A stretch of DNA of 64,000 nt from Rhodospirillales bacterium (lineage in GTDB: Bacteria; Pseudomonadota; Alphaproteobacteria; Acetobacterales; Acetobacteraceae), in assembly GCA_025352665.1 (NCBI GenBank), contig JANXSM010000177.1:1-64000 (forward strand), read 5' to 3'. Of this stretch, positions 36,090 to 50,351 are shown one piece after another. The stretch's first letter is position 1. Every line of letters starts with the position of its first letter. Position numbers and translations under genes: made by a program. The notes beneath the pieces were generated by a model. It did not search any database, was not told the origin of the DNA, and saw only the letters and a list, made by a program, of their open reading frames with translations.

Positions 36090-36270
36090 TGCTTCGCAGC
36101 CGACGGTCCCGTTCAGGCCGGTCCCATGCTTCACCCCAGCAATATCTCAGCGCGAGTTCCCGGAACGGCCGGTCGAGTTTGCTGGCGTCGGCGAGCGCCG
36201 CTTCGGACCGGCCGCGGCAGATGACCTCGGCGCGGATCTCCTAACTGCGCTGAAGAAGTCCGTCGCTCAT
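36090..36270 (-). pseudogene. N-terminal fragment of carboxymuconolactone decarboxylase-like gene
   Basis: An ATG at 36270 overlaps the pqqE TGA (ATGA). The frame reads MSDGLLQRS, an in-frame TAG (36241-36243), then EIRAEVICRGRSEAAL and DRPFRELALRYCWGEAW with ERDRRLRS. This matches the N-terminal half of carboxymuconolactone decarboxylases (PF02627), including the WGE block. The C-terminal half is gone: the frame meets repeat copy C at the CTAG. Both the amber codon and the truncation make it non-functional. Confidence 0.75.
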
Positions 36271-37367
36271 AGAACGGAAGTTTTGACTCTGGCCCGCTCG
36301 CGATAGATGAAATCCCCAGCCGGTGCCGCGGCCCGCTGCACGGCGACATCGAGCAACGAATGATCCCGCGACAGCCGGCAGGCCGGATCGGTCGCGGTCG
36401 CATCGCCGGTCAACGCAAAGGCCTGGCACCGGCAGCCGCCCCAGTCCCGCTCCGCATTGACGCAACCCTGGCACGGACCGCGCATCCATCCGGTTCCACG
36501 ATACATCTCGAAAGCTTCTGACGAAGTCCAGATGCTTGCCAAATCACGATCCAGCACCGATTCGAACACCATGCCGGGCAGGCTCTCCGCGGCGTGGCAC
36601 GGCAGCACCTTGCCGGTCGGGTTGACCACCATCACCTGCCGGCCCCAGCCACCCATGCAGGCCTTTGGCTCAGTCGCGTAATAATCCGGCACCACGTAGT
36701 CGATCGACAAAACACCACGATGCTCCGAGCGCGCCTGCTCCACCATAACGGTCGCCCGATCGAGCTGATCGCGCGTCGGCAGCAGATGATCGCGGTTCAA
36801 CAAGGCCCAACCATAATATTGCACATGCGCCACTTCCAGTCGCTTCGCGCCCAGCTGCAGCGCAAGCGCCACGATCTCGCCGAGATGATCGAGGTTTTGA
36901 CGATGCACCACGGCATTCAGCGTGAACGGAAGCCCAGCCTGCGTCACCAGTCCTGCAAATGCCAGCTTGCGCGCATGGCCTCCCGGAAACCCCGCGATGC
37001 GGTCCGCCGAGCCCGGCTCGCTGTCCTGCACCGAAAGTTGCACATGGTCCAGTCCGGCCTCAGCCAACGCCGCAAGCCGTCCGGCATCCAGCATCATGCC
37101 GGAGGTAATCAGGTTGGTATAAAGCCCGGCCCCCGCCGCGTGGCTGACCAGTTCCACCAGATCGCGCCGCGCCGCCGGCTCGCCACCGGAAAGATGCAGC
37201 TGCAGGACTCCAAGTTCCGCGGCCTGGCGAAACACCCGCGCCCAGTCGGCGGTCGTCAACTCGCCGTCCGCCGCCGCTAGCGCCAGCGGATTGGAACAAT
37301 ACGGACAGCGTAGCGGACAACGATGCGTCAACTCCGCCAACAGACCGATCGGGGGGGGCGGGGTCAT
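36267..37367 (-). CDS. pqqE: PqqA peptide cyclase (radical SAM)
   Basis: A 366-residue radical SAM enzyme forming the Glu-Tyr carbon-carbon bond in PqqA, the first step of PQQ synthesis. The SAM-cluster motif is CPLRCPYC (residues 17-24), and the C-terminal SPASM cysteines lie in KACMGGWG, VLPCHAAESL and CQGCVNAERDWGGCRC. It overlaps pqqD by 4 bp and is the last intact gene of pqqABCDE; its stop overlaps the start of a broken decarboxylase gene. Confidence 0.97.
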   Translation of the reverse strand: MTPPPPIGLLAELTHRCPLRCPYCSNPLALAAADGELTTADWARVFRQAAELGVLQLHLSGGEPAARRDLVELVSHAAGAGLYTNLITSGMMLDAGRLAALAEAGLDHVQLSVQDSEPGSADRIAGFPGGHARKLAFAGLVTQAGLPFTLNAVVHRQNLDHLGEIVALALQLGAKRLEVAHVQYYGWALLNRDHLLPTRDQLDRATVMVEQARSEHRGVLSIDYVVPDYYATEPKACMGGWGRQVMVVNPTGKVLPCHAAESLPGMVFESVLDRDLASIWTSSEAFEMYRGTGWMRGPCQGCVNAERDWGGCRCQAFALTGDATATDPACRLSRDHSLLDVAVQRAAAPAGDFIYRERARVKTSVL

Positions 37368-37621
37368 CCGGCGAGTACCTGGCGCTCACGCAAATCGGCC
37401 AGCATGACAGTCACGTCGGCCGCGATCGCATCCCGCGGCGCGGCGAACTTCGCAGCCAGCGCATCGACGATCTCATCGAACGTGCGGACGCCGTCTACCA
37501 GCAGCAGTACCTCGGTGGCGATGTCGTCCGGCTCGAACACCCGCTCTGGCGCCAGGATCACCCAACGCCCACGCGCCTTGTCTTCGCGCAAACGATGGCC
37601 GCGAGCGAATTGCGGAACCAT
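37364..37621 (-). CDS. pqqD: PqqD peptide chaperone
   Basis: An 85-residue RiPP recognition element that binds PqqA and delivers it to PqqE. The sequence RGHRLREDKARGRWVILAPE and the block GVRTFDEIVDALAAKFA are typical of PqqD. The ATG at 37621 overlaps the pqqC stop (TGATG), and its own end overlaps the pqqE start. Stand-alone PqqD, rather than a PqqC-D fusion, is encoded here. Confidence 0.94.
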   Translation of the reverse strand: MVPQFARGHRLREDKARGRWVILAPERVFEPDDIATEVLLLVDGVRTFDEIVDALAAKFAAPRDAIAADVTVMLADLRERQVLAG

Positions 37622-38361
37622 CACGGCCGAAATGCCCCAGGCGGCGGCAGCCCAGGAGCGACGTAGGCGAAATGCAAAGCATCGAGCTGGGCCCACAGCA
37701 GATCGCATTTGAAGCGCAACGCGTCCAGCACGCCCTGCTGTTCCAGGCGCGTCTTGGCGTGGGCCTTCACGTAGTCGAGCGCGAAGGCCACGTCGAGCGG
37801 CGCCTGGGTCAGCCGCGGCGTGAAATAGGACAGCGTGTCGGCATCGACGAAATCGTAGTTGCGCAGCATGCCCGCAACCCGTTCGGAAATAATCTTGCCA
37901 GAGAACATCTCGGTCAACGACGACGCCACTGCCTCCAACACCGTCCGCTCGCGCACGAAATTCACATACGCGTCGACCGCAAACCGCGTGCCCGGCAGCA
38001 GGCCTTCCAGCGACATCACGTAGTTGTTGTCCAACCCAAGTCCGCCCGTCAGCCGCAGCCAGCGTTCGACGCCGCCGGGCGCGGTCCCTTCGCCGTCGTG
38101 ATCGACCAACCGACGGCGCCACTCGCGGCGCAGGTCGGTGGTCGGTAGCCGCGCCAGCAGGGAGGCGTCCTTCGCCGGAATGCGGCATTGATAGTAGTAG
38201 CGGTTCAGAGCCCAGGCCTGCACCTGGCCACGGTTGAGCTTGCCGTCATGCAGCAAACGATGGAACGGATGCAGGTTGTGATACCGCTCCGCACCGATTT
38301 CAAGCAGGCGGCGCTCCAACTCGTCAGGAGAAAGCATCGGCTCCGGATTTGACACGTTCAT
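37621..38361 (-). CDS. pqqC: Pyrroloquinoline-quinone synthase
   Basis: A 246-residue cofactorless oxidase that performs the final ring closure and oxidation to PQQ. Family blocks are YHNLHPFHRLLHDGKL, QAWALNRYYYQCRIPAKDA, GLLPGTRFAVDAYVNFVRE and DFVDADTLSYFTPRL, with active-site His, Arg and Tyr residues in place. It overlaps pqqB by 4 bp and pqqD by 1 bp. Confidence 0.97.
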   Translation of the reverse strand: MNVSNPEPMLSPDELERRLLEIGAERYHNLHPFHRLLHDGKLNRGQVQAWALNRYYYQCRIPAKDASLLARLPTTDLRREWRRRLVDHDGEGTAPGGVERWLRLTGGLGLDNNYVMSLEGLLPGTRFAVDAYVNFVRERTVLEAVASSLTEMFSGKIISERVAGMLRNYDFVDADTLSYFTPRLTQAPLDVAFALDYVKAHAKTRLEQQGVLDALRFKCDLLWAQLDALHFAYVAPGLPPPGAFRP

Positions 38362-39278
38362 GTGAGCAGCTCCATGCCATCGAAGGCAACGTCCCAGCCC
38401 TGGTCTTGCAGAATGGCTCGTTCGGGCGAGCAGGCCAGCAGAGCAGGATTGGTGTTGTTGAGGTGAATGAACACGCGGCGTTGCACGTCCAGCCCAGTAA
38501 AGGCGGCCATCACGCCGTCCGGTCCGCTGATGCTCATATGCCCCATGCGGGCGCCCGTTTTGGAGCTGAGATTTGCCGCGATCATCTCGTCATCCTGCCA
38601 CAGCGTACCGTCAAACAACACTAGTCTTGCCCCGCGCAACCGCTGGCGCAAGGCGTCCGTCATCTCGGCACAGCCGGGAATGAAGAACATGCTCTGGCAG
38701 CCGTCGAGGATCTCCAGACCAATGGTGGCACCGTCGTCCGATCGACCGGGATCTCCGTCGACTTCGGCAAACAGCGGAACCTTGCCGGGCACTGCGAAGG
38801 CGCGCACTGAAAGGCCCAGCGAAACGCCGGCAGCGTCGCTCAACACCGTCATTTGGTCGAGCGGCAAGGCCCGTCGCGCCACCCGTGGCTCGGGCAGCGC
38901 ATGGAAAATCGGATTTGCCGCAAGAACGGCAAGAACGTCGCATGCTGCGTATAGTGCGAATGAATGGCCTTCGCGCAGACTGAGCAATCCGGCAATCGCA
39001 TCGATCTCGCCGCTCGTCAGCAGAACCGCGGCGATCGGCGAATGACGGCCGTTCCCTTTCGGATGCAAGTCCGGCGTCCGAAGAATCTGGGTGGACAATT
39101 CCGGCGCGGCGTTCAACAGGATCCAACGCTCGCCATCGGATGAAATGGCTACACCGCACTGGGTGCGCGGCGAGGCATCAGTATCACCGCTGCGGGCCCG
39201 GCGGCACAGTTCACATCCGCAATTCCATTGCGGAAAACCACCACCGGCGGCTGATCCCAACACGATCGCGCGCATCAC
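38358..39278 (-). CDS. pqqB: PqqB, metallo-beta-lactamase-fold PQQ biosynthesis protein
   Basis: A 306-residue protein of the PqqB family, an iron-dependent hydroxylase acting on the diglutamyl/tyrosine intermediate. Conserved parts are GSAAGGGFPQWNC, the zinc-site CGCELCRRAR, LLNAAPELSTQI and MGHMSISGPDG. A second ATG one codon later is possible. It is separated from pqqA by 68 bp containing a strong hairpin. Confidence 0.96.
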   Translation of the reverse strand: MMRAIVLGSAAGGGFPQWNCGCELCRRARSGDTDASPRTQCGVAISSDGERWILLNAAPELSTQILRTPDLHPKGNGRHSPIAAVLLTSGEIDAIAGLLSLREGHSFALYAACDVLAVLAANPIFHALPEPRVARRALPLDQMTVLSDAAGVSLGLSVRAFAVPGKVPLFAEVDGDPGRSDDGATIGLEILDGCQSMFFIPGCAEMTDALRQRLRGARLVLFDGTLWQDDEMIAANLSSKTGARMGHMSISGPDGVMAAFTGLDVQRRVFIHLNNTNPALLACSPERAILQDQGWDVAFDGMELLT

Positions 39279-39346: not shown

Positions 39347-39424
39347 TCAGACCTTGGCGCAGACGTAGCAATTGATTTCCATTGCGCAGGATACTTCAGT
39401 CACGTGGGGGGTCTTCCAGGTCAT
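39347..39424 (-). CDS. pqqA: PqqA, peptide precursor of PQQ
   Basis: A 25-residue peptide, MTWKTPHVTEVSC followed by AMEINCYVCAKV. The Glu and Tyr that become PQQ are Glu16 and Tyr20 in the ExxxY spacing of the family, preceded by the usual WxxP start. Three cysteines (13, 19, 22) are present, more than in the best-known PqqA peptides. A strong GAGGAGAG ribosome site precedes the ATG. It is first in pqqABCDE. Confidence 0.92.
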   Translation of the reverse strand: MTWKTPHVTEVSCAMEINCYVCAKV

Positions 39425-39548: not shown

Positions 39549-40022
39549 TTATGGCGTCACTACGTCCGCATCGCACGGCGCTGGCACGATCGCGTCCGCC
39601 TTGATCGCCCCTTGGGCATATTGTTCGAGCCGGGCATGCAGCGCGAGATAGTCGCGCGTCGACTGCTGTTCCCGGCAGGTCATCGCCATGCCTTCGAGGC
39701 GGATCGGCAGCCCGCCATACGCCTCGATCATGCTTTCGATCACTTCGCCAGACCGATGCCGCTGGGCCGCGGTACGCTGGCGAAATCGCTGCTTCGCCGG
39801 CGCCGTGAACGGACAGTTGTTGAACCGCTCTACGAGGGCCTGGCGATAGATCCGCCCGCTGACCGCGTCGCCGCACGCATCGAACGTATAGAACGATGTC
39901 GCGTAAGAACGATCGAACGCCTCGATATGTTCGTCGGACGCCTGAGCGGCGCTAACCGGCTGAGCATGTGCTGTGACCGGAAGTGCCGCCATTGCAGCCA
40001 ACCATAGGATGACGATGCGCAT
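39549..40022 (-). CDS. Exported hypothetical protein upstream of pqqA
   Basis: A 157-residue protein with a signal peptide (MRIVILWLAAMAALPVTAHA) and no recognised domain. Three mature cysteines (FDACGDA, NNCPFTA, TCREQ) and a fourth near the end (PAPCDAD) could form two disulfides. It lies 21 bp downstream of the dihaem cytochrome gene on the same strand, and the pqqA gene follows after 124 bp. The position suggests a periplasmic partner of the quinoprotein system, an inference only. Confidence 0.75.
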   Translation of the reverse strand: MRIVILWLAAMAALPVTAHAQPVSAAQASDEHIEAFDRSYATSFYTFDACGDAVSGRIYRQALVERFNNCPFTAPAKQRFRQRTAAQRHRSGEVIESMIEAYGGLPIRLEGMAMTCREQQSTRDYLALHARLEQYAQGAIKADAIVPAPCDADVVTP

Positions 40023-40043: not shown

Positions 40044-40643
40044 TTATGGTAACATCGCGAGGTAGTGCGCCAGAGCCGCGATGTCATCGTCATGCAGGCC
40101 CGACGCCGCCTCGGTCATCGCAGCAACACCGGTGCTGGGTCTTTGGCCGGACCGGTAGTCGGTCAACGACTTCACGACATATTCCTCCCGCTGCCGGGCC
40201 AACCGCGCCGCTCCTTGCTTGCCGGTAAATTCATCGGTGTGGCAATTGGCACAACGATGCTCCTGCGCAACCTCGCTGCCCCGCGTTGCAAGATCCGGTT
40301 TGGGGTCAGGCGGTAGCGGTCGCGTGTCGGGCGGCAGCGAGGCGTAGTAGGCACCAAGATTGCGCACGTCCTCGTCGGACAGCAGGTTCGCGATCGCCCC
40401 CATCACCGGATTCTTGCGCCGCTCGGAACGGTAGAACACCATCTGCCACTGCAGGAAGGCATCCAGATTGCCGGCCAAGGTCGGCACCCCGGCGATTGCC
40501 GAGATGCCTGCCGCACCGTGGCAGTTCGCGCAGAGCTGGGCTTTCTCTCGGCCGGCCTCGATATTTCCCGCGGCGCGGCAAGCAGGCACCGCCACAAGGC
40601 AGGAGGCGGCCAACACGGCCGCCCCCATCATCAACGAACGCAT
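40044..40643 (-). CDS. Dihaem cytochrome c (c4-like)
   Basis: A 199-residue periplasmic electron carrier with a signal sequence and two haem motifs, CANCH at residues 38-42 and CANCH at 131-135, with candidate methionine ligands in KNPVMGAIAN and GVAAMTEAA. The two-domain layout matches cytochrome c4-type proteins. It lies 3 bp downstream of the sorbosone dehydrogenase-like gene and probably takes its electrons. Confidence 0.92.
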   Translation of the reverse strand: MRSLMMGAAVLAASCLVAVPACRAAGNIEAGREKAQLCANCHGAAGISAIAGVPTLAGNLDAFLQWQMVFYRSERRKNPVMGAIANLLSDEDVRNLGAYYASLPPDTRPLPPDPKPDLATRGSEVAQEHRCANCHTDEFTGKQGAARLARQREEYVVKSLTDYRSGQRPSTGVAAMTEAASGLHDDDIAALAHYLAMLP

Positions 40644-40646
40644 CGA

Positions 40647-41903
40647 CTACTTCGCGTAGCTGATGCGATAGATCGCGCCGGCCCAGTCGTCAGCGACCAG
40701 CATCGAGCCATCTTTCGCCACCAGGACATCGGTCGGTCGACCGGAATAATCCGTCTTGCCGGTCAACCAGCCGGAGGCGAACTCCTCCTGATGCGGATTT
40801 TTGCCGTCGGCGTCCACCACCACCCGATCGATCCGTGCGCCCTGATACTGATGGCGGTTCCACGAGCCGTGCAGGGTGACAAAGATGTTGTTTTGATATT
40901 CAGCCGGAAACTGCGCGCCGGTATAGAACTTCATCCCCAAGGGTGCCACGTGGGCGCCCAGGTTTACCACCGGAGGCGTGAACTCGGTGCACTTATGCCC
41001 GTCGTTAAACTTCGGATCCGGCAGATCGCCCTGGTGACAATATGGATAGCCGAAATGTTCTCCCAATCTCGTGATATGGTTCAACTTGTCGCTGGGCAGG
41101 TCATCGCTCATCCAGTCGCGCGCATTCTCGCTGAACCAGTAGTCACCGCTGCGCGGATCGATGTCGCCGCCCACGCTGTTGCGCACACCCATCGCCACAA
41201 CCTCGGCGAGACCGGTCTTTGGATCGACCCGGCGGATCTGCGAGACATTGGTCGGCGGAATGCCGACGTTGAACGGAGGGCCGAAGGGCACATACATTTT
41301 GCCCGACTTGTCGGTGACCAGATACTTCCAACCATGCGCCAGATACGGCGGCATGTCGTCATATGCCACCACCGGCGCCGGCATATGGTCCAGGTTTGTC
41401 TCGGCATTGTCGTAGCGCAGCAGCTTGTCGATGGCGATCACATACAACGCGCCATCCTGGAACGCGATGCCGGTCGGCATCGTGAGGCCCTTGAGGATGG
41501 TCTTGACCGTCCGCTTGCCACCTTGGTCGGTGACGGCATAGACGTTGGTCGCGCCGAATGAGCCGACGAACAGCGTTCCGTTGGCGCCCCAGGCCATCTG
41601 CCGAGCCTCGGGAAGTCCGGCGGCATAGACCTCGATCTTGAAGCCTGCCGGCAGCTTGATGTTCTTCATGTTGGCTTCGAGCTCGGCCAACGGCGTAGGC
41701 GTCGCTGGCCCGACGGAAGGTGCCAGACCCTTCATCGAGGCGGTTTCGTCACCTAAAAACCAGTCGGCCGGCGGGCTCTTCCAAAAGCTTGGCTTGCTCG
41801 AATCGTAACTTTTCAACGGTTGTGCCTGCACGGCGCCGGAGCCCAGCGCGGCGGCCAGGCCGACGCAGCCGGCAATTCTGATCAGATGAGATGTCGATGC
41901 CAC
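40647..41903 (-). CDS. PQQ-dependent sugar dehydrogenase, L-sorbosone dehydrogenase-like
   Basis: A 418-residue soluble quinoprotein with a six-bladed propeller, of the GdhB/SNDH fold. A signal peptide (LIRIAGCVGLAAALGSGAVQA) sends it to the periplasm. Family blocks are LPEARQMAWGANGTLFVGS, YVPFGPPFNVGIPP, GEHFGYPYCHQGD, HVAPLGMKFYTG and VTLHGSWNR. It starts with GTG at 41903 preceded by GGGAG. A dihaem cytochrome gene 3 bp downstream is the likely electron acceptor. The actual sugar or aldehyde substrate is not determinable. Confidence 0.88.
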   Translation of the reverse strand: MASTSHLIRIAGCVGLAAALGSGAVQAQPLKSYDSSKPSFWKSPPADWFLGDETASMKGLAPSVGPATPTPLAELEANMKNIKLPAGFKIEVYAAGLPEARQMAWGANGTLFVGSFGATNVYAVTDQGGKRTVKTILKGLTMPTGIAFQDGALYVIAIDKLLRYDNAETNLDHMPAPVVAYDDMPPYLAHGWKYLVTDKSGKMYVPFGPPFNVGIPPTNVSQIRRVDPKTGLAEVVAMGVRNSVGGDIDPRSGDYWFSENARDWMSDDLPSDKLNHITRLGEHFGYPYCHQGDLPDPKFNDGHKCTEFTPPVVNLGAHVAPLGMKFYTGAQFPAEYQNNIFVTLHGSWNRHQYQGARIDRVVVDADGKNPHQEEFASGWLTGKTDYSGRPTDVLVAKDGSMLVADDWAGAIYRISYAK

Positions 41904-42056
41904 GAATTCGCTCCCTAGTTTTTTGTTCTTGTTAAGCCGAGTGCCACACCAAGGAATGCTCAACCGACGAGCCGCAACCCGTCAAGCATTGCGATCTTGT
42001 TTTGGAAGCTCGCGGCCGCGTATCAAGGCATCGTGATCAAAAGGATCGTGCGCCCT

Positions 42057-42860
42057 TCAGCCTTCGTCGCGACCACGACGGCCGAGCACCCCCTTCTGGG
42101 GATCATAGCCGCGTGCGGCGAAAAGGAACGCCAGCAGACCGACACCAACGGTCACCAACGCTTCAGGCACCGCAAAAATGCCATACAGCGCGAAGCGAAT
42201 GAATTCCACGATGGCGCTGAACGGATTGAGTCGCACCGCCCACACCATCCACAGCGCACCGCTCTCGGCGATCTTCCAGGCAGGATAAAGAGCTGTCGAC
42301 AGAAAGAACGCCGGGAAGATCACGAAATTCATCGTGCCGGCAAAGTTTTCCATCCGCCGCACATGCACTGTCAGCAGCAGCCCGATCGAAGCCAACGCAA
42401 ATCCACCCATAACGATTGCCGGCAGCACCGTCAGCAGCCCGAAAAGCGGATAGTCCACCCCTGCGAGCCAGGCCACCACGAAGAACGCATAGGCCTGCAA
42501 CACGCCCAAAATGGTGCCTGCAAGCAGCTTGGCAAACAAAATGAACCAGCGGGGAACCGGCGCCGTCAGAAGCAGCCTGAGGAACCCCGCCTCGCGGTCG
42601 AACACCAATGCCAGTGACGACTGCATGCCCTGAAAGAGCAGCACCATGCCAACCAGTCCGGGCACCATATAAACGTCATAGGTCACATAGGTTTGATAGG
42701 GTGGCGTGATGGAAATGCCGAGAACGTTGGAAAATCCGGCACCGAACACCAGCAGCCACAGCGCCGGCCGTACCACCGCCGATGCCAGCCGACTGGTCTG
42801 GCGTAGGAAGCGGATCGCCTCGCGCAGCACCACCGCCTCGAGCGCCCGCAACCAGCGCAT
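42057..42860 (-). CDS. ABC-2 type permease, PQQ-dependent alcohol system
   Basis: A 267-residue ABC-2 membrane protein with six helices; blocks such as VRPALWLLVFGAGFSN, YMVPGLVGMVLLFQGMQSSL and FLRLLLTAPVPRW match the PedC-like permease found with PQQ alcohol oxidation genes (TIGR03861 by memory). The ATG at 42860 overlaps the ATPase stop (TGATG). Its cargo is unknown; a binding protein and a beta-propeller protein are encoded in the same operon. Confidence 0.9.
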   Translation of the reverse strand: MRWLRALEAVVLREAIRFLRQTSRLASAVVRPALWLLVFGAGFSNVLGISITPPYQTYVTYDVYMVPGLVGMVLLFQGMQSSLALVFDREAGFLRLLLTAPVPRWFILFAKLLAGTILGVLQAYAFFVVAWLAGVDYPLFGLLTVLPAIVMGGFALASIGLLLTVHVRRMENFAGTMNFVIFPAFFLSTALYPAWKIAESGALWMVWAVRLNPFSAIVEFIRFALYGIFAVPEALVTVGVGLLAFLFAARGYDPQKGVLGRRGRDEG

Positions 42861-43600
42861 CACGCGGGCTTCCGATTTAACGCCAGGAAGGCCTGCTCGA
42901 GCGTGTCGGATCCCGTCGACGCCAGCAACGAAGCCGGCGTGCCGCACGCCACCACCTGACCGCGCGCCAACACCACCACGGCGTCGGCATCCTCGATGTC
43001 CGACACGATATGCGTCGCCCATAGCACCGCGATCCCGCGCTCCCGCGTCGCCTGGAACACGTCCCGCGTGAGATCGTGCCGGGCCTGGGTGTCGAGCCCG
43101 CTGCTCGGCTCGTCCAGCAGCAGCAAGTCCGGTGAGGTCACCAGCGCGCGCGCCAATTCGACCTTGCGCCGCGTGCCGCCCGAGAGTTCCCGCGTCGGCT
43201 TCGTCGCCTGATCCGCAAGACCGAACTGCGCCAATGCTGCGTCGACCGCCGTGCGCATCGCGGCGCGGGTCATGCCATGCAGCCGAGCATGAAAGTTGAG
43301 GTTCTGCCGCGCCGTCAGGTCGAGATCCAATGCTGGCTGCTGGAACACGATGCCCAACCGCGCCAGCGCCGCCTGTGGCCGGTGCCTCATGTCGTGGCCA
43401 AATACCGAGATCCTGCCGGCATCGGCCACGAACAACCCGGTCAGCAGTTGGAACAAGGTGGTCTTGCCGGCGCCGTTCATTCCAAGCAGCGCCGTGACCG
43501 ATCCGGCTTCGACCCGCAACGAAACGCGATCGAGTGCGCGGAGCTTGCCATAGTTCTTGGTCAGGCCTTCGACCTCAAGGATCATCTGGCCGGCTTGCAC
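42860..43600 (-). CDS. ABC transporter ATP-binding protein, PQQ-dependent alcohol system
   Basis: A 246-residue ATPase with Walker A GMNGAGKTT (near residue 40), signature LSGGTRRKVELARAL and Walker B LLLLDEPSSGLD, plus a switch histidine in LWATHIVSD. It pairs with the overlapping ABC-2 permease. Either the first ATG at 43600 or one at 43585 may be used; both lie within the end of the binding-protein gene. The family is associated with PQQ-dependent catabolism (TIGR03864 by memory). Confidence 0.92.
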   Translation of the reverse strand: MQAGQMILEVEGLTKNYGKLRALDRVSLRVEAGSVTALLGMNGAGKTTLFQLLTGLFVADAGRISVFGHDMRHRPQAALARLGIVFQQPALDLDLTARQNLNFHARLHGMTRAAMRTAVDAALAQFGLADQATKPTRELSGGTRRKVELARALVTSPDLLLLDEPSSGLDTQARHDLTRDVFQATRERGIAVLWATHIVSDIEDADAVVVLARGQVVACGTPASLLASTGSDTLEQAFLALNRKPA

Positions 43601-44742
43601 GGCATATCCACCGCGCCGAGGCCTAACGTATCAAGCGTTGTCACCTGGTGCAGGAACCCTTCGATCGGCGCATAGTCGATCACCGCGTCGGCCGTTCGCA
43701 GAATCACCGGCTGGCGTAGCTGGTGGTCCCACGATCGAAACGACGCAGCCATGCCTTTGGAAACATCCAGCTGCACGCTGCCATCCTGCAGCCGCTGTAC
43801 GATCCCGGCAGCATCCGCCGCACTCTTCCGTGCGACCGCCTCGACCACCGCATGCACCGCGACCCAGGCCGCCCAGTCCGCGGGTGTCATCGGCCGACCT
43901 GCAAATTTCGCGAACCTATTGTTGACCTGTGGCGCGCCGAACCGATCCGCTAGCGGGTCCCAGTCGCCGGCCATCAACCCGACCGTGCCGATCACCGGCC
44001 GAGGCCGCGCCAGCGCATATGGCACCGCGCGGCCGAAGTCGTGTGCGGTGTCGGCTACGAAGGCGACGTCGAATTCCTCGGCGTAGCTCATCAGCGCCAC
44101 TGAGTTCTGCTCCCGTCGACGCGGATCGTTGCCCATCACAAACGGCTTATCAGCCACGATCCGTGCGCCAAACTTCTTTGCTGAAACCACGAAGGCCGAG
44201 GCCAGCACACGGTCGGCCTCGAGTGGGCCAGTCAGCAGCAGCACGTTCTTCCAGTTGTGCCGCACCACAAACTGGGCCAGCGCATCGGTCTGCCCGGTCG
44301 TGCTGGCTGGCACATGAAACAGGCTCGTCCCGCAGGCCGCGCGGCGCAAGGCGTCGGTGTCGTCGCGAATGTTGAATACCGCGAGCATGCCCGCAGCGGC
44401 TTTTGCCGCGGCAAGCAGATCAGAGCCCGCGAGGTCGCCGATCACCGCGACCGCCGGGCCGGCGTCGCGCACCGCCTGCGCCACATCGGCGTCAGCGGCG
44501 AGCTCGCGGCTTTCGAGTCGAATCTCGAGCCCGGTGGCACGCCCGATCGCACGCACGTCACGCACCGCGAGCGCAGCACCCGCCCTCGGCCGCGGCGGCG
44601 CAGGCCGGGCCACACCGTCATCGGCGACACTGGCCGCATAGAACGGATCCTCCGCTCGCGACAGCATCAGGATGGTCAGATCGCGCGACATCGCCGGCGC
44701 CGACCACGCCAGAAAGCATATCGCAGCGAGCAGCCTATTCAT
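43582..44742 (-). CDS. PQQ-associated ABC transporter substrate-binding protein
   Basis: A 386-residue periplasmic binding protein of the branched-chain amino acid receptor fold, matching the PQQ-dependent alcohol dehydrogenase-associated type (TIGR03863 by memory). Signal peptide MNRLLAAICFLAWSAPAMS; conserved stretches LTILMLSRAEDPFY, VAVIGDLAGSDLL, HNWKNVLLLTGPL and RPMTPADWAAWVAVHAV. The ATG at 44742 overlaps the beta-propeller gene by 8 bp. A binding protein next to an ABC-2 (exporter-type) permease is an odd pairing typical of this locus. Confidence 0.87.
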   Translation of the reverse strand: MNRLLAAICFLAWSAPAMSRDLTILMLSRAEDPFYAASVADDGVARPAPPRPRAGAALAVRDVRAIGRATGLEIRLESRELAADADVAQAVRDAGPAVAVIGDLAGSDLLAAAKAAAGMLAVFNIRDDTDALRRAACGTSLFHVPASTTGQTDALAQFVVRHNWKNVLLLTGPLEADRVLASAFVVSAKKFGARIVADKPFVMGNDPRRREQNSVALMSYAEEFDVAFVADTAHDFGRAVPYALARPRPVIGTVGLMAGDWDPLADRFGAPQVNNRFAKFAGRPMTPADWAAWVAVHAVVEAVARKSAADAAGIVQRLQDGSVQLDVSKGMAASFRSWDHQLRQPVILRTADAVIDYAPIEGFLHQVTTLDTLGLGAVDMPCKPAR

Positions 44743-45700
44743 CGATGACGATAGCGTAGGGAATGATGCCGACCGGGATCGCCTTGACAACCTTGCCGCG
44801 GGCGACGTCGACGATCGCGATGTCGTCCGATAGCCCGTTGGCAACATAGAGCTTGGTTTCGTCGCCCGAAAGCCGCAGCCCCCAGGGGCGGCGTCCGACC
44901 AGGATGTAGTCGATTACCTCCAGGCGCTGCACGTCGATGACGGCGACGTTGTTTGCGCGCCCCAACGCCACCCAGGCGCGCGTGCCGGCGCGGTTCATCG
45001 CAATATCCACCGGCGTCACCTCGTCGCGCGTCATCCCACGCGGCGCAAAGCTCAGGCTCCCGGTCCGCGTCAGGCTCGCGACGTCGATCACGTCGACCAC
45101 ACCGGCGATCTCGCAAGACACCCACAGCGACTTGCCGTCCGGCGTCAGCGCGAAGCGGCGCGGCCGTTCGGAGACAAAGATGTCCTTCTTCACGACCTGT
45201 GCGGCGATGTCGATCACATGCACCAGGTTGCCGGCCTCGGAAGCGACGAAGGCGAACTTGCCGTCCGGCGTGATCAGCACCCCTTCCGGCTCCTCGCCGG
45301 TCGGGAAATGGCCGGTCACCTCGCCAGTCTCGAGGTTCAGCACGGTCGCCTCCGCCGAGTCCTCGTTCGAGATATAGAGATCGCGTCCGTTCGGGGCGAG
45401 ATCGAAGGTTTCCGGATCCGGCACGTCGCGGAACCGGCGAACCAGCTTTCTCGTGGCGACGTCATACATGGCGATCGTGTTGTCACCGCCGCAGGCCACG
45501 ATCAACTGGGTGTGGTCCTTGGTAAAATGCAGCCCGCGCGGCCGTGCGCAGCTGGCGAACGAGCCGACGACCACGTCATTGCGATCGAGCACGAAGATTT
45601 GGCTGGATCGCTCGTTGGAGACGAATACAAGTCCGCTCCGCTCTGCCCGCGCGGGCGTTGCTGCCAGCAGCAACAGACCTGCGAAGATCAGCGCGCGCAA
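44735..45700 (-). CDS. PQQ-dependent catabolism-associated beta-propeller protein
   Basis: A 321-residue exported YVTN-type seven-bladed propeller with a signal peptide (MRALIFAGLLLLAATPARA). Repeats such as LFVSNE-like VFVSNERSSQIFVLD, LYISNEDSAEATVLN, KSLWVSCEIAGVVDVID and KLYVANGLSDDIAIVD recur about every 42 residues. It belongs to the propeller family found beside PQQ alcohol dehydrogenases (TIGR03866 by memory). No PQQ-binding motif is visible. It overlaps both neighbours, showing tight operon packing. Confidence 0.9.
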   Translation of the reverse strand: MRALIFAGLLLLAATPARAERSGLVFVSNERSSQIFVLDRNDVVVGSFASCARPRGLHFTKDHTQLIVACGGDNTIAMYDVATRKLVRRFRDVPDPETFDLAPNGRDLYISNEDSAEATVLNLETGEVTGHFPTGEEPEGVLITPDGKFAFVASEAGNLVHVIDIAAQVVKKDIFVSERPRRFALTPDGKSLWVSCEIAGVVDVIDVASLTRTGSLSFAPRGMTRDEVTPVDIAMNRAGTRAWVALGRANNVAVIDVQRLEVIDYILVGRRPWGLRLSGDETKLYVANGLSDDIAIVDVARGKVVKAIPVGIIPYAIVIDE

Positions 45701-46035
45701 TCGACCAGATCTTTCTCGCCGACCGAGAACACGCCCTCAGCCGGAACGTTGACGTTGCGAGCGAAGCAGACCCGCCCCTTCACGTCGCGTAGCCGCAGGT
45801 CGTAGCGGCCGGGCGGCGTGTTGGTCACCCTGACCTGCTCGTCGAAATCGACCGCTTTGTCCTTGTCGTTCAGCGCCTGATTGATGCCGAACCCGGTGGT
45901 GCCGGCCGGTGCCAGCTGGATCTCGGCGAGCGTCTCCGGCGTCAGGTTCCACATCTTCACCGGCGACGGCGTGGCTGCGAACGACGCGAATGCGGCAACG
46001 ACGAGGACCGCGGACAGACCGAAAATTCGGATCAT
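45688..46035 (-). CDS. Small exported protein of the PQQ-associated operon
   Basis: A 115-residue protein from the ATG at 46035 with a signal peptide (MIRIFGLSAVLVVAAFASFA). The mature part has two cysteines (GRVCFARNV and LVDCAR) likely to form a disulfide, and an immunoglobulin-like pattern (VRVTNTPPGRYDLRLRDVKG). I recognise no named family. It overlaps the beta-propeller gene by 13 bp, so a linked periplasmic role is likely. Confidence 0.78.
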   Translation of the reverse strand: MIRIFGLSAVLVVAAFASFAATPSPVKMWNLTPETLAEIQLAPAGTTGFGINQALNDKDKAVDFDEQVRVTNTPPGRYDLRLRDVKGRVCFARNVNVPAEGVFSVGEKDLVDCAR

Positions 46036-46099: not shown

Positions 46100-47011
46100 T
46101 CACCGACCGAGCGCCAGCGCCAGCGCCTCGACGGCATCGACCACCGCCTGCGGCGCGTCGAGTGGGATCTGATGGCCACTACCCTGCACCACTGTCGGCA
46201 GCGGCGCTCCAAGCTCCGATGCAAGCTCCGACTGCATTTTTGTCCATGCCTCCTCCATGCGGCCATCCGGATACGCCTGGTCCCATTCCCGATTGCCGTG
46301 CACCAGCACGCGCGAGGCGACGTGGGGGATCGGCAGCGCGCGCACCTCGCGGGCGTCGGACACGAACCCCAGCATCTCGCGAACGACGAACACCCGCGCC
46401 TTGCCCTGACCGGCTAATTCCTGTGCCAGCCGCTGCAGCGGGGCCGGCATTCCATAGGCGGCAGCGGCAACCGGAGTCCGGCCCAGCACCAGATGCGGAT
46501 CGTCCGGCAAGGCCACGCCGGCTTCGGGAAACCGCGTGAATTGGTCTGGATGCATGGCATCGAGCAGCACCAGCCCCACGACCTCGTCGGGATAGCGTTG
46601 CGCGTAGTGCAGCGAAAGCAGCCCGCCGAGCGAATGGCCGACCATTAGAAATGGCCCTGGCTCGCCGGCGGCGGCGAGAAGTAGATGCAGTTCCTCGGCC
46701 ATCGCATCGGCACTGCGTGGCTGATCGGTGCGCTCACTCCATCCGGCACCGGGCCGATCGAACGAACAGACCCGGAAACGCTGGGCTAAAATCGGCTGAA
46801 CATAAGTCCAGTCGAGCACGTTGCCGCCGAGCCCGGCCTGCAGCACCACCGTCGGCGCGCCGGCCCCGGTGCAAAGGATGTGAAGCATGCTGCCGGCCAC
46901 CGGAAGCAGGCGTCCCGGTGCTTGCGCGGAAACGCCGTCCTCCGCCGATGCCGGCCACGCGAGCAGCGTCAGCCAGCACATCACCAGTCGGACGACGGCT
47001 TGCGCGTTCAT
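46100..47011 (-). CDS. Exported alpha/beta hydrolase
   Basis: A 303-residue alpha/beta-hydrolase with an N-terminal signal (MNAQAVVRLVMCWLTLLAWP). The nucleophile elbow is MVGHSLGGLLS, followed by LVLLDAMHPDQF; the oxyanion region is LQAGLGGNVLDW, and the catalytic histidine is probably in VQGSGHQIPLDAP. An earlier ATG at 47029 adds six residues. The substrate is unknown; an ester or lactone produced by the quinoprotein oxidations would fit the neighbourhood but is speculative. It is divergent from the ankyrin gene. Confidence 0.87.
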   Translation of the reverse strand: MNAQAVVRLVMCWLTLLAWPASAEDGVSAQAPGRLLPVAGSMLHILCTGAGAPTVVLQAGLGGNVLDWTYVQPILAQRFRVCSFDRPGAGWSERTDQPRSADAMAEELHLLLAAAGEPGPFLMVGHSLGGLLSLHYAQRYPDEVVGLVLLDAMHPDQFTRFPEAGVALPDDPHLVLGRTPVAAAAYGMPAPLQRLAQELAGQGKARVFVVREMLGFVSDAREVRALPIPHVASRVLVHGNREWDQAYPDGRMEEAWTKMQSELASELGAPLPTVVQGSGHQIPLDAPQAVVDAVEALALALGR

Positions 47012-47063
47012 CGCTAGACTGTATGTCATTGGTCAGAGATTGGAAGCATTTGACGAGGCACTC

Positions 47064-47993
47064 ATGATCCGTTGTTTATTTGGCTTGGTGCCCGCCGCCG
47101 TCGCAGCGCTGCTGTTGCCGAGCCCGGCACACGCCGTCGTCGACGCCTGCAGCGTAATCGATCGAAACTTCGAAGCTGGCCACGCTGACTTGGCGACTGC
47201 GCAGCTCAGCGCAATGCTGTTCGGCGCAGCCGACAACGACTGCCCGGCGCTGGTGCCCAGACTGATCGCAGCCGGCGCCTCGATCTCCACCCGAGATCGC
47301 ACTGGCGGGACGGCCCTAACCCACGCCGCACGTTCCGGTCGCGTCGATATGGTCCGACTGCTGGTCGCCAGCGGCGCCGACCTCAACCAGCGCGACATTG
47401 GCGGCGCCACGCCGTTGTCGATCGCCATCGAGACCAGCCACGGTCCCGCCGCCCGCGCGCTGATCGACGCAGGCGCTGATGTCGCCCTGGCCGGCCACGC
47501 TGGCGTCACGCCGCTGATCGCCGCCGCCTATAACGGCAACCTTGGTGTACTGGACGCGCTACTTGGCCACAAGGCCGATCCGGCGACCACCGACGGCACC
47601 GGCAAGCCGGCGGTGCTCTATGCCGCGGCGCGCGGATTTTCATCCATCGTCATGCGGCTGCTCGACGCCGGCATCGACGTCAACACGGTTTATGCCAACG
47701 GCCTCACCGTTCTGTCATGGGCTGCCGGACACGCGGAAGACGTGCCAACCGCCGAAGGTGCCACGCTGGTCACCCGATTGCTTGATCGCGGTGCCAGGCC
47801 GGACGTCGCCGACGATCGCGGCCAGACTCCGCTGATGATCGCATCCGCGATGGATCATGCCGACGTGGTCGACATCCTTCTTGCACATGGTGCCGATCGA
47901 ATGGCCCGCGATGCCAAGGGAAAGACGGCCGCGGATCTTGCCGGTTCTGACGTGCTGCGGGCGAAGCTCCTCGCTCAAAGCCCCGCGAGATAG
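47064..47993 (+). CDS. Exported ankyrin-repeat protein
   Basis: A 309-residue periplasmic protein with a signal peptide (MIRCLFGLVPAAVAALLLPS) and about six ankyrin repeats, e.g. GGTALTHAARSGRVDMVRLL, GVTPLIAAAYNGNLGVLDAL and GQTPLMIASAMDHADVVDIL. Ankyrin proteins of this kind act as scaffolds. It is the only plus-strand gene inside the quinoprotein region, and its last 19 bp overlap the cytochrome gene on the other strand. The start at 47064 is chosen for the signal peptide. Confidence 0.88.
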   Translation: MIRCLFGLVPAAVAALLLPSPAHAVVDACSVIDRNFEAGHADLATAQLSAMLFGAADNDCPALVPRLIAAGASISTRDRTGGTALTHAARSGRVDMVRLLVASGADLNQRDIGGATPLSIAIETSHGPAARALIDAGADVALAGHAGVTPLIAAAYNGNLGVLDALLGHKADPATTDGTGKPAVLYAAARGFSSIVMRLLDAGIDVNTVYANGLTVLSWAAGHAEDVPTAEGATLVTRLLDRGARPDVADDRGQTPLMIASAMDHADVVDILLAHGADRMARDAKGKTAADLAGSDVLRAKLLAQSPAR

Positions 47994-48556
47994 GCGGCCA
48001 ACGCCGTCAGATCCTCCGGCGAGGCGGCATTCATCAGGTCCGACATTCCGGGATTGTTGGCCCGCGTGCGCGAGCGAAACGCTTCCATCGAAGCGAGCAG
48101 GTAGCTCTGCTTCTGGCCGGCCAGTCGAGGAATGGAGCTGTTACCCTGGAAGTTCGCCAGGTGACAGCCGGTGCAGCCGATTGAGCTGTTGGCAACCAGC
48201 GCCACCCTCGCGACTTCCGATTGCGCCGCTGGCTGGTTGAGGTTCGGCCAGGGCTTGGCCGCGAAATACTTGGCATACGCAAACATGTCGTCGCGCGACA
48301 TGCCGGCGGCAATGCCGTTCATCAGCGGACTGGCGCGAACATTGTTCTTGAGGTCTTTCAACTGGAGATAAATGTAACCTTCGGTCTGTCCCCACAGGAC
48401 CGGCACGTTCGCAATTGTAGGCACCCCGGCCGCCCCATGGCACGCCGAGCACAACGCCGCCTTGTCGGAAATATCAGGCGCGTCGGCAGGCTGTGCCTGC
48501 GCCAAGGCGCTCCATGACGCCAATGCGCCAACAATGAAAAAGATCAAGCGGCGCAT
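47975..48556 (-). CDS. Dihaem cytochrome c (c4-like), next to the PQQ dehydrogenase
   Basis: A 193-residue exported cytochrome with haem motifs CSACH (residues 36-40) and CTGCH (128-132); candidate axial methionines lie in SPLMNGIAAGM and NPGMSDLMNAA. The start at 48556 gives a signal peptide MRRLIFFIVGALASWSALA. It lies 88 bp downstream of the large quinoprotein dehydrogenase on the same strand, beyond a hairpin, and is the obvious electron acceptor candidate for it. Confidence 0.92.
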   Translation of the reverse strand: MRRLIFFIVGALASWSALAQAQPADAPDISDKAALCSACHGAAGVPTIANVPVLWGQTEGYIYLQLKDLKNNVRASPLMNGIAAGMSRDDMFAYAKYFAAKPWPNLNQPAAQSEVARVALVANSSIGCTGCHLANFQGNSSIPRLAGQKQSYLLASMEAFRSRTRANNPGMSDLMNAASPEDLTALAAYLAGL

Positions 48557-48592
48557 GCCTAAAATTCCAAATGAGTGAGGCTGAGAACTCAA

Positions 48593-48644: not shown

Positions 48645-50351
48645 TCAGTCGACAGTGAAGGCGATGATGCTGTTGCCGCGCTTATAGTCCAACTGCGTGT
48701 TGCCGCCGGCACCTACCACGATGTACTGCTTCCCCTCGATCGAGTAAGAGGACGGCGGCGCGTTGACGCCCGCGCCGGCCTGGAACGACCACAGAACCGA
48801 GCCGCTCTCGGAGTCATAGGCCTTGAACAGACCGTTGCCTTCGCCGGCGAACACCAGCCCACCTGCCGTCGCCAAAGCGCCGCCAATCATCGGCTGCGGC
48901 GTCTTGACCTGCCAACGGATTGCGCCGGTGTTATAGTCGACTGCCGTCAGGTTGCCCCACTGCTCCTCGGACGGGATTACCTTGAACGCGCCGCCAAGCC
49001 ACAACTTGCCTGATGGATACTGCGAGGTCTGCACGTGATAGGTCATCGGCTGGTGCAGGTTCAAGGCGTAGGTGAGCCCAAGCGTCGGGCTCACCGCCAT
49101 CGGTGACCACTCCACGCCACCATTGGCGCCGGGCAGCATCCGCGCACCGTCCTTGGTCGGCAGCACCCACATGTTCTCCTGCGGCACCATCGCCTCGGAG
49201 AAGCGGATCAGGCTGCAATCCTTGCGGTCGTGCACATAGACATGGCCCGTCTTGCCGGCATGTAGAATGCCCGGAACCATGTTGCCACCAGCATTCTTCA
49301 CGTTGACCAATACCGGCGGACTGACGGCGTCCAAATCCCACACGTCGTGAGCGATGTATTGGAAGTGGCAAGAATACTTGCCGGTGTCGAGATCCAGCGA
49401 AACGAGGCTGTCGGTGTAGAGGTTGTCGCCCGGGCGCAGCGACCCGTCGAGGTCTGGAGACGGATTGCCGACAACAAAATAGATCTTGTTCGCGGCGAGG
49501 TCGATCGCCGGGGGCTGCCACACTCCGCCGCCAAGGGTCTTGTATGGGTCACCTGACTTGGCGAGCTGGGCTTTTTCGGCAGCGATGTCGCGGTGCAAGT
49601 CGCGACCTGTTGCATCCGTTGTCGCCCACACGCCGACAGAGTTGTCTGGTGCGGTGTCAAACGTCCACAGCAGCTTGCCGTCGGCGACGTCGAACGCCTT
49701 GATAAAGCCGCGGATACCATATTCGCCGCCGTTGGTACCGATCAGCACCTTTCCCTTCGCCACGACCGGCGCCATCGTCTCGCTGTAGCCAAGCTCAGGA
49801 TCGGCGATCTGAATCGACCAGGCGGTTGCCCCGGTCTTGGCATCGAGCGCGACCAGCTTGCTGTCCAACGTCGCGACGAATACCTTGTCGCCGGACACCG
49901 CAACGCCGCGATTGTTCGGGCCACAGCAATAGGTGGTGATCGGCCCCATCTTATGGGCGTAGTGCCAAAGCTCTTCGCCGGTGCGCGCGTTCAGCGCATA
50001 GACGTGGCTGAACGAGGTGGTCACATACATCACGCCATTGACGACGATCGGCGAGGTTTCAAGCGATTCCTTCACCTCGGTCTGGAAAATCCAGGCCGGC
50101 CGCAGCTTCGACACGTTGGTCGTGTTGATCTGGCGGTTTGGATAGTAACGTTGCTGGGCGTAGTCGCCGTTGCTGGTGAGGAAGTTCGAGCTGTCACCGG
50201 CGGCGCGGCTCAGCATATCTTGAGACACAGTCGCCATGTTGCCGAATTTGGTGGCGTTCTTGATCTCCTGCGAAGATGCCGGCTGGGCTGCCAGGGCCAA
50301 AGCCAGCGAACACGTTCCCGCAAGTAAAGCCAGCCGCATGCGATGCCTCAT
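48645..50351 (-). CDS. PQQ-dependent alcohol/methanol-type dehydrogenase, lanthanide-type active site
   Basis: A 568-residue periplasmic quinoprotein with a signal peptide (cleavage near ASS-QE) and an eight-bladed propeller. The PQQ-contacting vicinal disulfide is Cys142-Cys143 (TTYCCGPNN), the metal-site glutamate is in NGGEYGIRG and an asparagine in VGNPSPD. The catalytic aspartate is Asp339 in HDVWDLDAV, followed two residues later by Asp341. That extra aspartate marks lanthanide-dependent enzymes (XoxF, PedH); calcium enzymes have Ala or Ser there. There is no C-terminal haem domain. The ATG at 50351 is chosen over two upstream starts. Its substrate could be methanol, ethanol or another alcohol. 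Confidence 0.9.

Follow-up and report, generated by a model that had tools for sequence, protein, structure and literature searches.

Predicted lanthanide-type PQQ alcohol dehydrogenase encoded with a dihaem cytochrome, a PedA1A2BC-like transporter and pqqABCDE in a Rhodospirillales bacterium

Gene content of the locus

The window, i.e. the whole stretch of 64,000 nucleotides analysed from a Rhodospirillales bacterium of the Acetobacteraceae, carries a gene for a PQQ-dependent alcohol dehydrogenase (hereafter ADH) within a gene island whose features, from the ADH gene downstream, are as follows.

48645..50351, minus strand: PQQ-dependent alcohol dehydrogenase, 568 aa, with a lanthanide-type site (E210, N296, D339, D341; G209; C142-C143)
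49923-49928, minus strand: Cys142-Cys143 codons (codon check)
49722..49727, minus strand: Gly209-Glu210 codons; Glu210 (49722-49724) is the metal ligand, in a GGE as in the XoxF and PedH references
49464..49466, minus strand: codon of Asn296, metal ligand (alignment and codon check)
49329..49337, minus strand: Asp339-Leu340-Asp341 codons, the Asp-x-Asp motif (HDVWDLDAV); Asp339 at 49335-49337 and Asp341 at 49329-49331 (codons checked)
47975..48592, minus strand: dihaem c-type cytochrome (CSACH, CTGCH), probable electron acceptor; alternative ATG start at 48556
47064..47993, plus strand: ankyrin-repeat protein with a signal-peptide-like N-terminus (by eye), convergent to the cytochrome gene
46100..47029, minus strand: alpha/beta hydrolase, with homologues in 5 of 80 relatives' loci
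45688..46035, minus strand: small exported-looking protein, no family match in the family scan
44735..45700, minus strand: PedA2/LutB-like YVTN beta-propeller (TIGR03866, 304.7 bits, over cut-off)
43582..44742, minus strand: PedA1/LutA-like periplasmic binding protein (TIGR03863, 342 bits, below the cut-off of 413.6)
42860..43600, minus strand: PedB-like ABC ATPase (TIGR03864, over cut-off)
42057..42860, minus strand: PedC-like ABC permease (TIGR03861, 327.8 bits, over cut-off)
40647..41963, minus strand: GSDH-domain (glucose/sorbosone dehydrogenase-like) protein, scanned from 41891
40044..40643, minus strand: second dihaem cytochrome (two CANCH; family scan and motif)
39549..40022, minus strand: small exported-looking protein, no family match over cut-off in the family scan
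39347..39424, minus strand: pqqA-like precursor peptide, 25 aa, ExxxY (family assigned by eye)
38358..39278, minus strand: pqqB (TIGR02108)
37621..38361, minus strand: pqqC (TIGR02111)
37364..37666, minus strand: pqqD, start approximate (TIGR03859)
36267..37367, minus strand: pqqE (TIGR02109)

The ADH start was placed at the ATG at 50351, and an upstream in-frame ATG would give a protein of 589 aa. By its sequence the protein looks exported. As it contains no CxxCH, it is haem-free, which bears out the description of a quinoprotein without haem in the initial annotation. Against the methanol/ethanol family model TIGR03075 it scores 471.2 bits, under the curated cut-off of 480.05 for membership by score, and against TIGR03074 238 bits. 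Among solved structures, those of PedH, a type II quinohaemoprotein ADH and XoxF match it best by sequence, and PedH also matches it best by fold, the fold alignment giving 33% identity. In the AlphaFold model, whose mean pLDDT is 68, only the fold could be confirmed, as residues 141-145, 209-212 and 300-304 all fall below a pLDDT of 50 and the surroundings of the active site are too weakly modelled for their geometry to be measured.

The PedA1A2BC-type four-gene set and pqqABCDE both lie downstream of the ADH gene on its strand, and both had been overlooked by the initial annotation. The same annotation had stated that the window holds no xoxJ, xoxG or lanthanide uptake receptor. Indeed, no TonB receptor, XoxJ, single-haem XoxG or lanthanide regulator was recognised among the 50 window ORFs scanned for families (all within the first 60.3 kb, and exclusive of many small ORFs), but the statement passed over a transporter set of the lanthanide type. 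At their 3' ends, the convergent ankyrin and cytochrome genes share 19 bases (47975-47993).

Metal site, transporter and predicted metal use

The initial annotation had placed Asp341 two positions after Asp339 in HDVWDLDAV, which the codon check of 48645-50351 confirmed, and had equated it with the extra aspartate of XoxF and PedH, replaced by Ala in MxaF and Ser in ExaA. The reference alignment agrees with this assignment: Asp341 aligns with the extra Asp of XoxF (6dam, 6oc5, 4mae) and PedH (6zcv), and the equivalent residue is Ala in MxaF (1lrw), Ser in ExaA (1flg) and Thr in qhADH (1kv9). Gly-Glu, Asn and Asp-x-Asp are found in all nine XoxF and PedH/PedH-like rows, while the corresponding residues are Ala-Glu and Asp-x-Ala in MxaF, Asp-Glu and Asp-x-Ser in ExaA, and Ala-Glu and Asp-x-Thr in qhADH; at every compared position (Gly-Glu, Asn, Asp-x-Asp) ADH follows the lanthanide pattern. 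Furthermore, Asp339, Asp341, Glu210, Asn296 and the GGE are kept in 80/80 relatives (loci L011-L090, the best 80 of 272 confirmed by tblastn). Since all 80 loci keep both Asp339 and Asp341, the Asp-x-Asp of ADH is not a product of chance.

Residue 209 was also followed in a class sample of 241 genomes, with an ADH match in 60 and PedC in 33, in which the site was read in 118 listed ADHs outside the genome under study, plus its own two; the best five candidates per genome were scored, so that some enzymes may be missed. Gly occupies this position in 44 of the 61 proteins with Glu, Asn and Asp-x-Asp, and in 2 of the 38 that combine the same Glu, Asn and Asp with Asp-x-Thr/Ser/Ala. Because Ala replaces it in the nearest relative outside the ADH family (L008) and in some XoxF-like rows, Gly209 is supportive rather than decisive.

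The Asp-x-Asp motif had been treated as diagnostic by itself, and this part of the initial annotation is not supported. As sole proof of lanthanide use the motif was rejected, given that E. coli Gcd and a paralogue in the same genome as ADH (L002) carry it without the Glu and Asn ligands; Rahnella Gcd resembles that of E. coli in having Asp-x-Asp but neither ligand in the aligned columns. In their ocean survey, Voutsinos et al. used Asp-x-Asp as a lanthanide marker and noted its presence in E. coli Gcd (PMC11996626), an enzyme (m-GDH) reported there with Ca, Mg, Zn and Sr. As the same authors predict Gcd to be facultatively lanthanide-using (PMC11996626), it is no clean negative control either. 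Thus, with E. coli Gcd carrying it too, Asp-x-Asp alone is weak evidence and is best interpreted in the light of the Glu and Asn positions and of the neighbouring genes. The full ligand set is the better mark of a lanthanide site, and the lanthanide-type site proposed for ADH appears well founded when judged by all four ligands rather than by the motif.

In the genome under study, two strong ADH matches and three weak fragments were found, and since the second ADH lacks Glu and Asn, the window ADH is the only full-site enzyme found there. The second PQQ dehydrogenase (L104, contig C177, 9226-11046), with Asp-x-Asp and without the Glu/Asn ligands, is closest to the 9m2c/7wmd/sorbose type and adjoins genes for an ABC permease and ATPase distantly like PedC and PedB.

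All four gene kinds of the PedA1A2BC/Lut systems (binding protein, YVTN propeller, ATPase and permease), as described in the relevant part of PMC6839425, are present in the window; three of the four score over their curated cut-offs and the binding protein falls below its own. According to the same account, P. putida requires PedA1A2BC to grow in a lanthanide-dependent manner when La is low (PMC6839425), and the lut genes of M. extorquens are likewise described as acting in lanthanide transport (PMC7391723). A review names PedA1A2BC as a lanthanide transporter and, in its passage on this system, gives it as absent from P. aeruginosa PAO1, which has no REE-dependent dehydrogenase (PMC12997753). 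The window transporter was likened to these systems through NCBIfam models and the descriptions in the papers; its lanthanide cargo is a prediction, and transport itself is supported for P. putida and M. extorquens only (PMC6839425, PMC7391723).

In the class sample, the distribution of PedC follows that of the metal site. Of the 60 genomes that gave an ADH match, a full-site Asp-x-Asp ADH was present in 27/30 with PedC and 5/30 without it (Fisher p = 5.7e-9); with one genome per family the figures were 17/19 and 3/19 (p = 5e-6), and with any Asp-x-Asp counted 27/30 and 8/30 (p = 4.8e-7). Three PedC genomes had no ADH match at threshold (G146, G151, G200), and five genomes had the full site without PedC (G039, G043, G160, G233, G241). 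In three further PedC genomes (G145, G148, G231) only Asp-x-Thr ADHs were found, which would mean either that some enzymes were missed or that the transporter there carries something else.

Within the ADH family itself the association is closer. Fifty of the 80 family loci were chosen for the PedC search, which covered the genomes of all but one of them (L082), and PedC was over the cut-off in 49/49 searched genomes; some genomes in these co-occurrence comparisons are incomplete MAGs. In 21 of the 49, the sole methanol/ethanol-family match at E 1e-70 is ADH itself, as judged by locus position, and in G284 and G287 nothing matched at the threshold although both genomes have a family locus. PedC over the cut-off was also found in three family members of the class sample (G088, G152, G236), in G021, G425 and G662, and in the deeper relative G058, while a family member outside the window's class (G658) has a PedC-like match of only 131 bits, below the cut-off. 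At least one transporter gene lies near ADH in 20 of the 33 relatives with at least 9 kb of flank on both sides. The ADH family is rare overall, occurring in 4 of 397 phylum genomes, the genome under study included, in a search that scored the best three candidates per genome and may have missed some enzymes. The genome of Bradyrhizobium erythrophlei (G295, locus L071) gave 14 methanol/ethanol-family PQQ dehydrogenase matches.

These data bear directly on the possibility that ADH works with calcium, or promiscuously with Ca and Mg, and has kept Asp-x-Asp from a lanthanide-using ancestor, with the transporter serving something else. The motif and the several metals reported for E. coli Gcd (m-GDH) would fit such an enzyme, as would the three PedC genomes in which all ADHs found are of Asp-x-Thr type and the family member G658, which has ADH without PedC over the cut-off. 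In addition, metal choice can be loose, because the calcium enzyme PedE_M.s. is described as retaining 50-80% activity with La, Nd, Sm, Gd or Yb added (PMC10409515). However, the full ligand set with GGE is kept in all 80 relatives, unlike in Gcd, and PedC accompanies ADH in all 49 genomes of the family search, including the 21 without another such ADH match at E 1e-70; a calcium enzyme therefore seems unlikely. Lanthanide use by ADH is the likely reading, and the initial annotation was probably right in this respect, for better reasons than the motif: the transporter set together with pqqABCDE on the same strand is the stronger evidence.

Phylogenetic place

Phylogeny against XoxF, PedH, ExaA and MxaF, the enzymes named for comparison in the initial annotation, assigns ADH to none of the four. 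In a tree of 43 rows (with a long-branch warning for Deinococcus L103, pdb9m2c, L008 and L002), ADH falls in a clade of 21 rows (100/98), and this clade together with L008 (53% identity) lies outside the clade of XoxF, MxaF, PedH, ExaA and qhADH (98/93). A quick 67-row tree, built without bootstrap and with L103, pdb9m2c and Rahnella Gcd left out, recovers the ADH clade at 99, apart from the type 6a group of M. aquaticum; it took 30 of the 118 class-sample ADHs, nearly all of them Asp-x-Asp. Membership in XoxF, PedH, ExaA, MxaF, qhADH or type 6a is rejected by the trees. The references were of XoxF5 type plus SolV 4mae for XoxF (XoxF1, XoxF3 and XoxF4 were not among them), and PedH with a PedH-like Variovorax row for PedH/ExaF (AM1 ExaF was not among them). 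No characterised member of the ADH branch was found. The clade may already bear a Keltjens type number, as the trees included few Keltjens references. As far as sequence goes, ADH appears to represent an uncharacterised and widespread branch of lanthanide-type PQQ enzymes, separate from XoxF, PedH, ExaA and MxaF.

For column 341, four changes between Asp and non-Asp suffice for these 67 rows, most of which were chosen for Asp-x-Asp, and MxaF, ExaA, qhADH and one type 6a copy are nested among the Asp-x-Asp enzymes. The nested non-Asp rows fit repeated loss of Asp at this position in a tree whose root was not inferred, and the deep position of the ADH clade, together with calcium-type sites nested at several points of the tree, is consistent with lanthanide use being ancestral in the family. 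On the M. aquaticum 22A plasmid, a probable type 6a ADH (L231, 144 kb) has Ala at 341 and its relative (L230, 449 kb) has Asp, so that the metal motif is probably mixed within this one type.

It is also conceivable, though improbable, that ADH falls into group 1b or group 2 of Voutsinos et al. (PMC11996626), which comprise putative glucose dehydrogenases free of TM segments, and acts as a sugar or polyol dehydrogenase. HDVWDLD resembles the HHDLWDMD of Gcd, Lys367 is common to both, and a GSDH-domain gene lies in the island. On the other hand, ADH scores 471 bits with TIGR03075 against 238 bits with TIGR03074, and Gcd, which stands for these proteins in a comparison without references of groups 1b and 2, lacks the Glu/Asn ligands and the Cys-Cys pair and joins the 43-row tree on a very long branch. 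That ADH is an ordinary XoxF or ExaF/PedH-type enzyme, merely divergent, is highly improbable, since despite PedH being its best solved match by sequence and fold, it has Lys367 in place of the Arg found in the XoxF, PedH and MxaF references, a dihaem cytochrome instead of XoxG/XoxJ, and a well-supported clade of its own in both trees.

Probable electron partner, proposed function and comparison with known systems

The dihaem cytochrome, suggested as a possible partner in the initial annotation, is 3'-adjacent to ADH in 69/69 relatives with enough flank, which supports that suggestion, and two CxxCH motifs are present in 78 of 79 ORFs of this adjacent cytochrome. The convergent ankyrin gene is found in 58 of 61 relatives' loci; a rough and uninformative signal-peptide pattern is matched by 33 of 72 ankyrin ORFs. 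Within 1.5 kb of 30 other ADH loci, neither a cytochrome nor an ankyrin homologue was detected. In the relatives' examined flanks, matches to XoxF, XoxG and XoxJ queries occurred in 2/80, 1/80 and 2/80, respectively. Four betaproteobacterial plasmid loci with a cytochrome homologue (L095, L225, L226, L228) all have an ankyrin gene as well, though oriented differently; both homologues are absent from a fifth (L227), and the flanks of the five gave no PedC match (0/5). In the open-licence literature, no paper was found that links a quinoprotein with ankyrin repeats, the periplasm and cytochrome c, and the combination of ankyrin with quinoprotein, PQQ or lanthanide was absent among the matches listed from the same literature.

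Two further loci show other arrangements. In L008 (0.8-Mb genome), no dihaem cytochrome homologue was found in the 1.5-kb flanks of ADH, and a small, exported-looking protein, cupredoxin-like by eye, is encoded beside it at 833-1453. On the Alloyangia pacifica plasmid (L094, L105), a stretch of about 20 kb contains the ADH module, a xoxF-type cluster accompanied by formaldehyde genes, and two propeller/binding-protein pairs; about 10 kb separate the ADH module from a gene that the 43-row tree places as XoxF5-like and whose neighbours were read as xoxG and xoxJ.

Taken together, the locus is quite probably a self-contained island for lanthanide-dependent alcohol oxidation. In the mechanism that we propose, the PedA1A2BC-like transporter would bring lanthanide into the cell and pqqABCDE would make PQQ; a light lanthanide ion, bound through Glu210, Asn296, Asp339 and Asp341, would activate the PQQ, as in XoxF and PedH; and ADH would oxidise an alcohol in the periplasm, with the dihaem cytochrome c encoded next to it as the acceptor of the electrons. 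The convergently encoded and probably periplasmic ankyrin protein may be a dedicated accessory of the enzyme-cytochrome pair. If true, this would add to the lanthanide enzymes an uncharacterised branch with a different electron partner. Moreover, in cultured isolates such as Oricola cellulosilytica, Salipiger mangrovisoli and Alsobacter metallidurans, ADH is the sole methanol/ethanol-family PQQ dehydrogenase found at E 1e-70, so that whether PedA1A2BC exists for lanthanide enzymes becomes a simple gene-deletion question.

Compared with known systems, the island shares different parts with each. Gcd has Asp-x-Asp and the Lys at 367 in common with ADH, but it is distant in the tree, lacks the Glu and Asn ligands at the aligned positions, and has Cys-Arg where ADH has Cys-Cys. 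Adh4 and Adh6 of M. aquaticum 22A, described in the passage concerning them as type 6a and uncharacterised (PMC7356819), are PQQ-ADHs with the Glu/Asn site; however, the two plasmid loci, to which the names adh4 and adh6 were given by inference from their order, show 37% identity at best and group elsewhere, with no Cys-Cys pair in the two aligned copies and Ala at 341 in one. XoxF, which works with XoxG and XoxJ, is like ADH a periplasmic quinoprotein with the four-ligand lanthanide site, whereas the window cluster has no recognised XoxG or XoxJ and ADH lies in a separate clade. The closest resemblance is to PedH/ExaF of P. putida (6zcv/6zcw), with which ADH shares the fold, the adjacent-Cys pair, the Glu/Asn/Asp/Asp site, the GGE and a PedA1A2BC-type transporter nearby, although the two are 33% identical, belong to separate clades and differ in Lys367 against Arg. 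For the ped cluster a review names the cytochrome c550 PedF (PMC12997753), and in its place the window has the dihaem cytochrome with its ankyrin partner.
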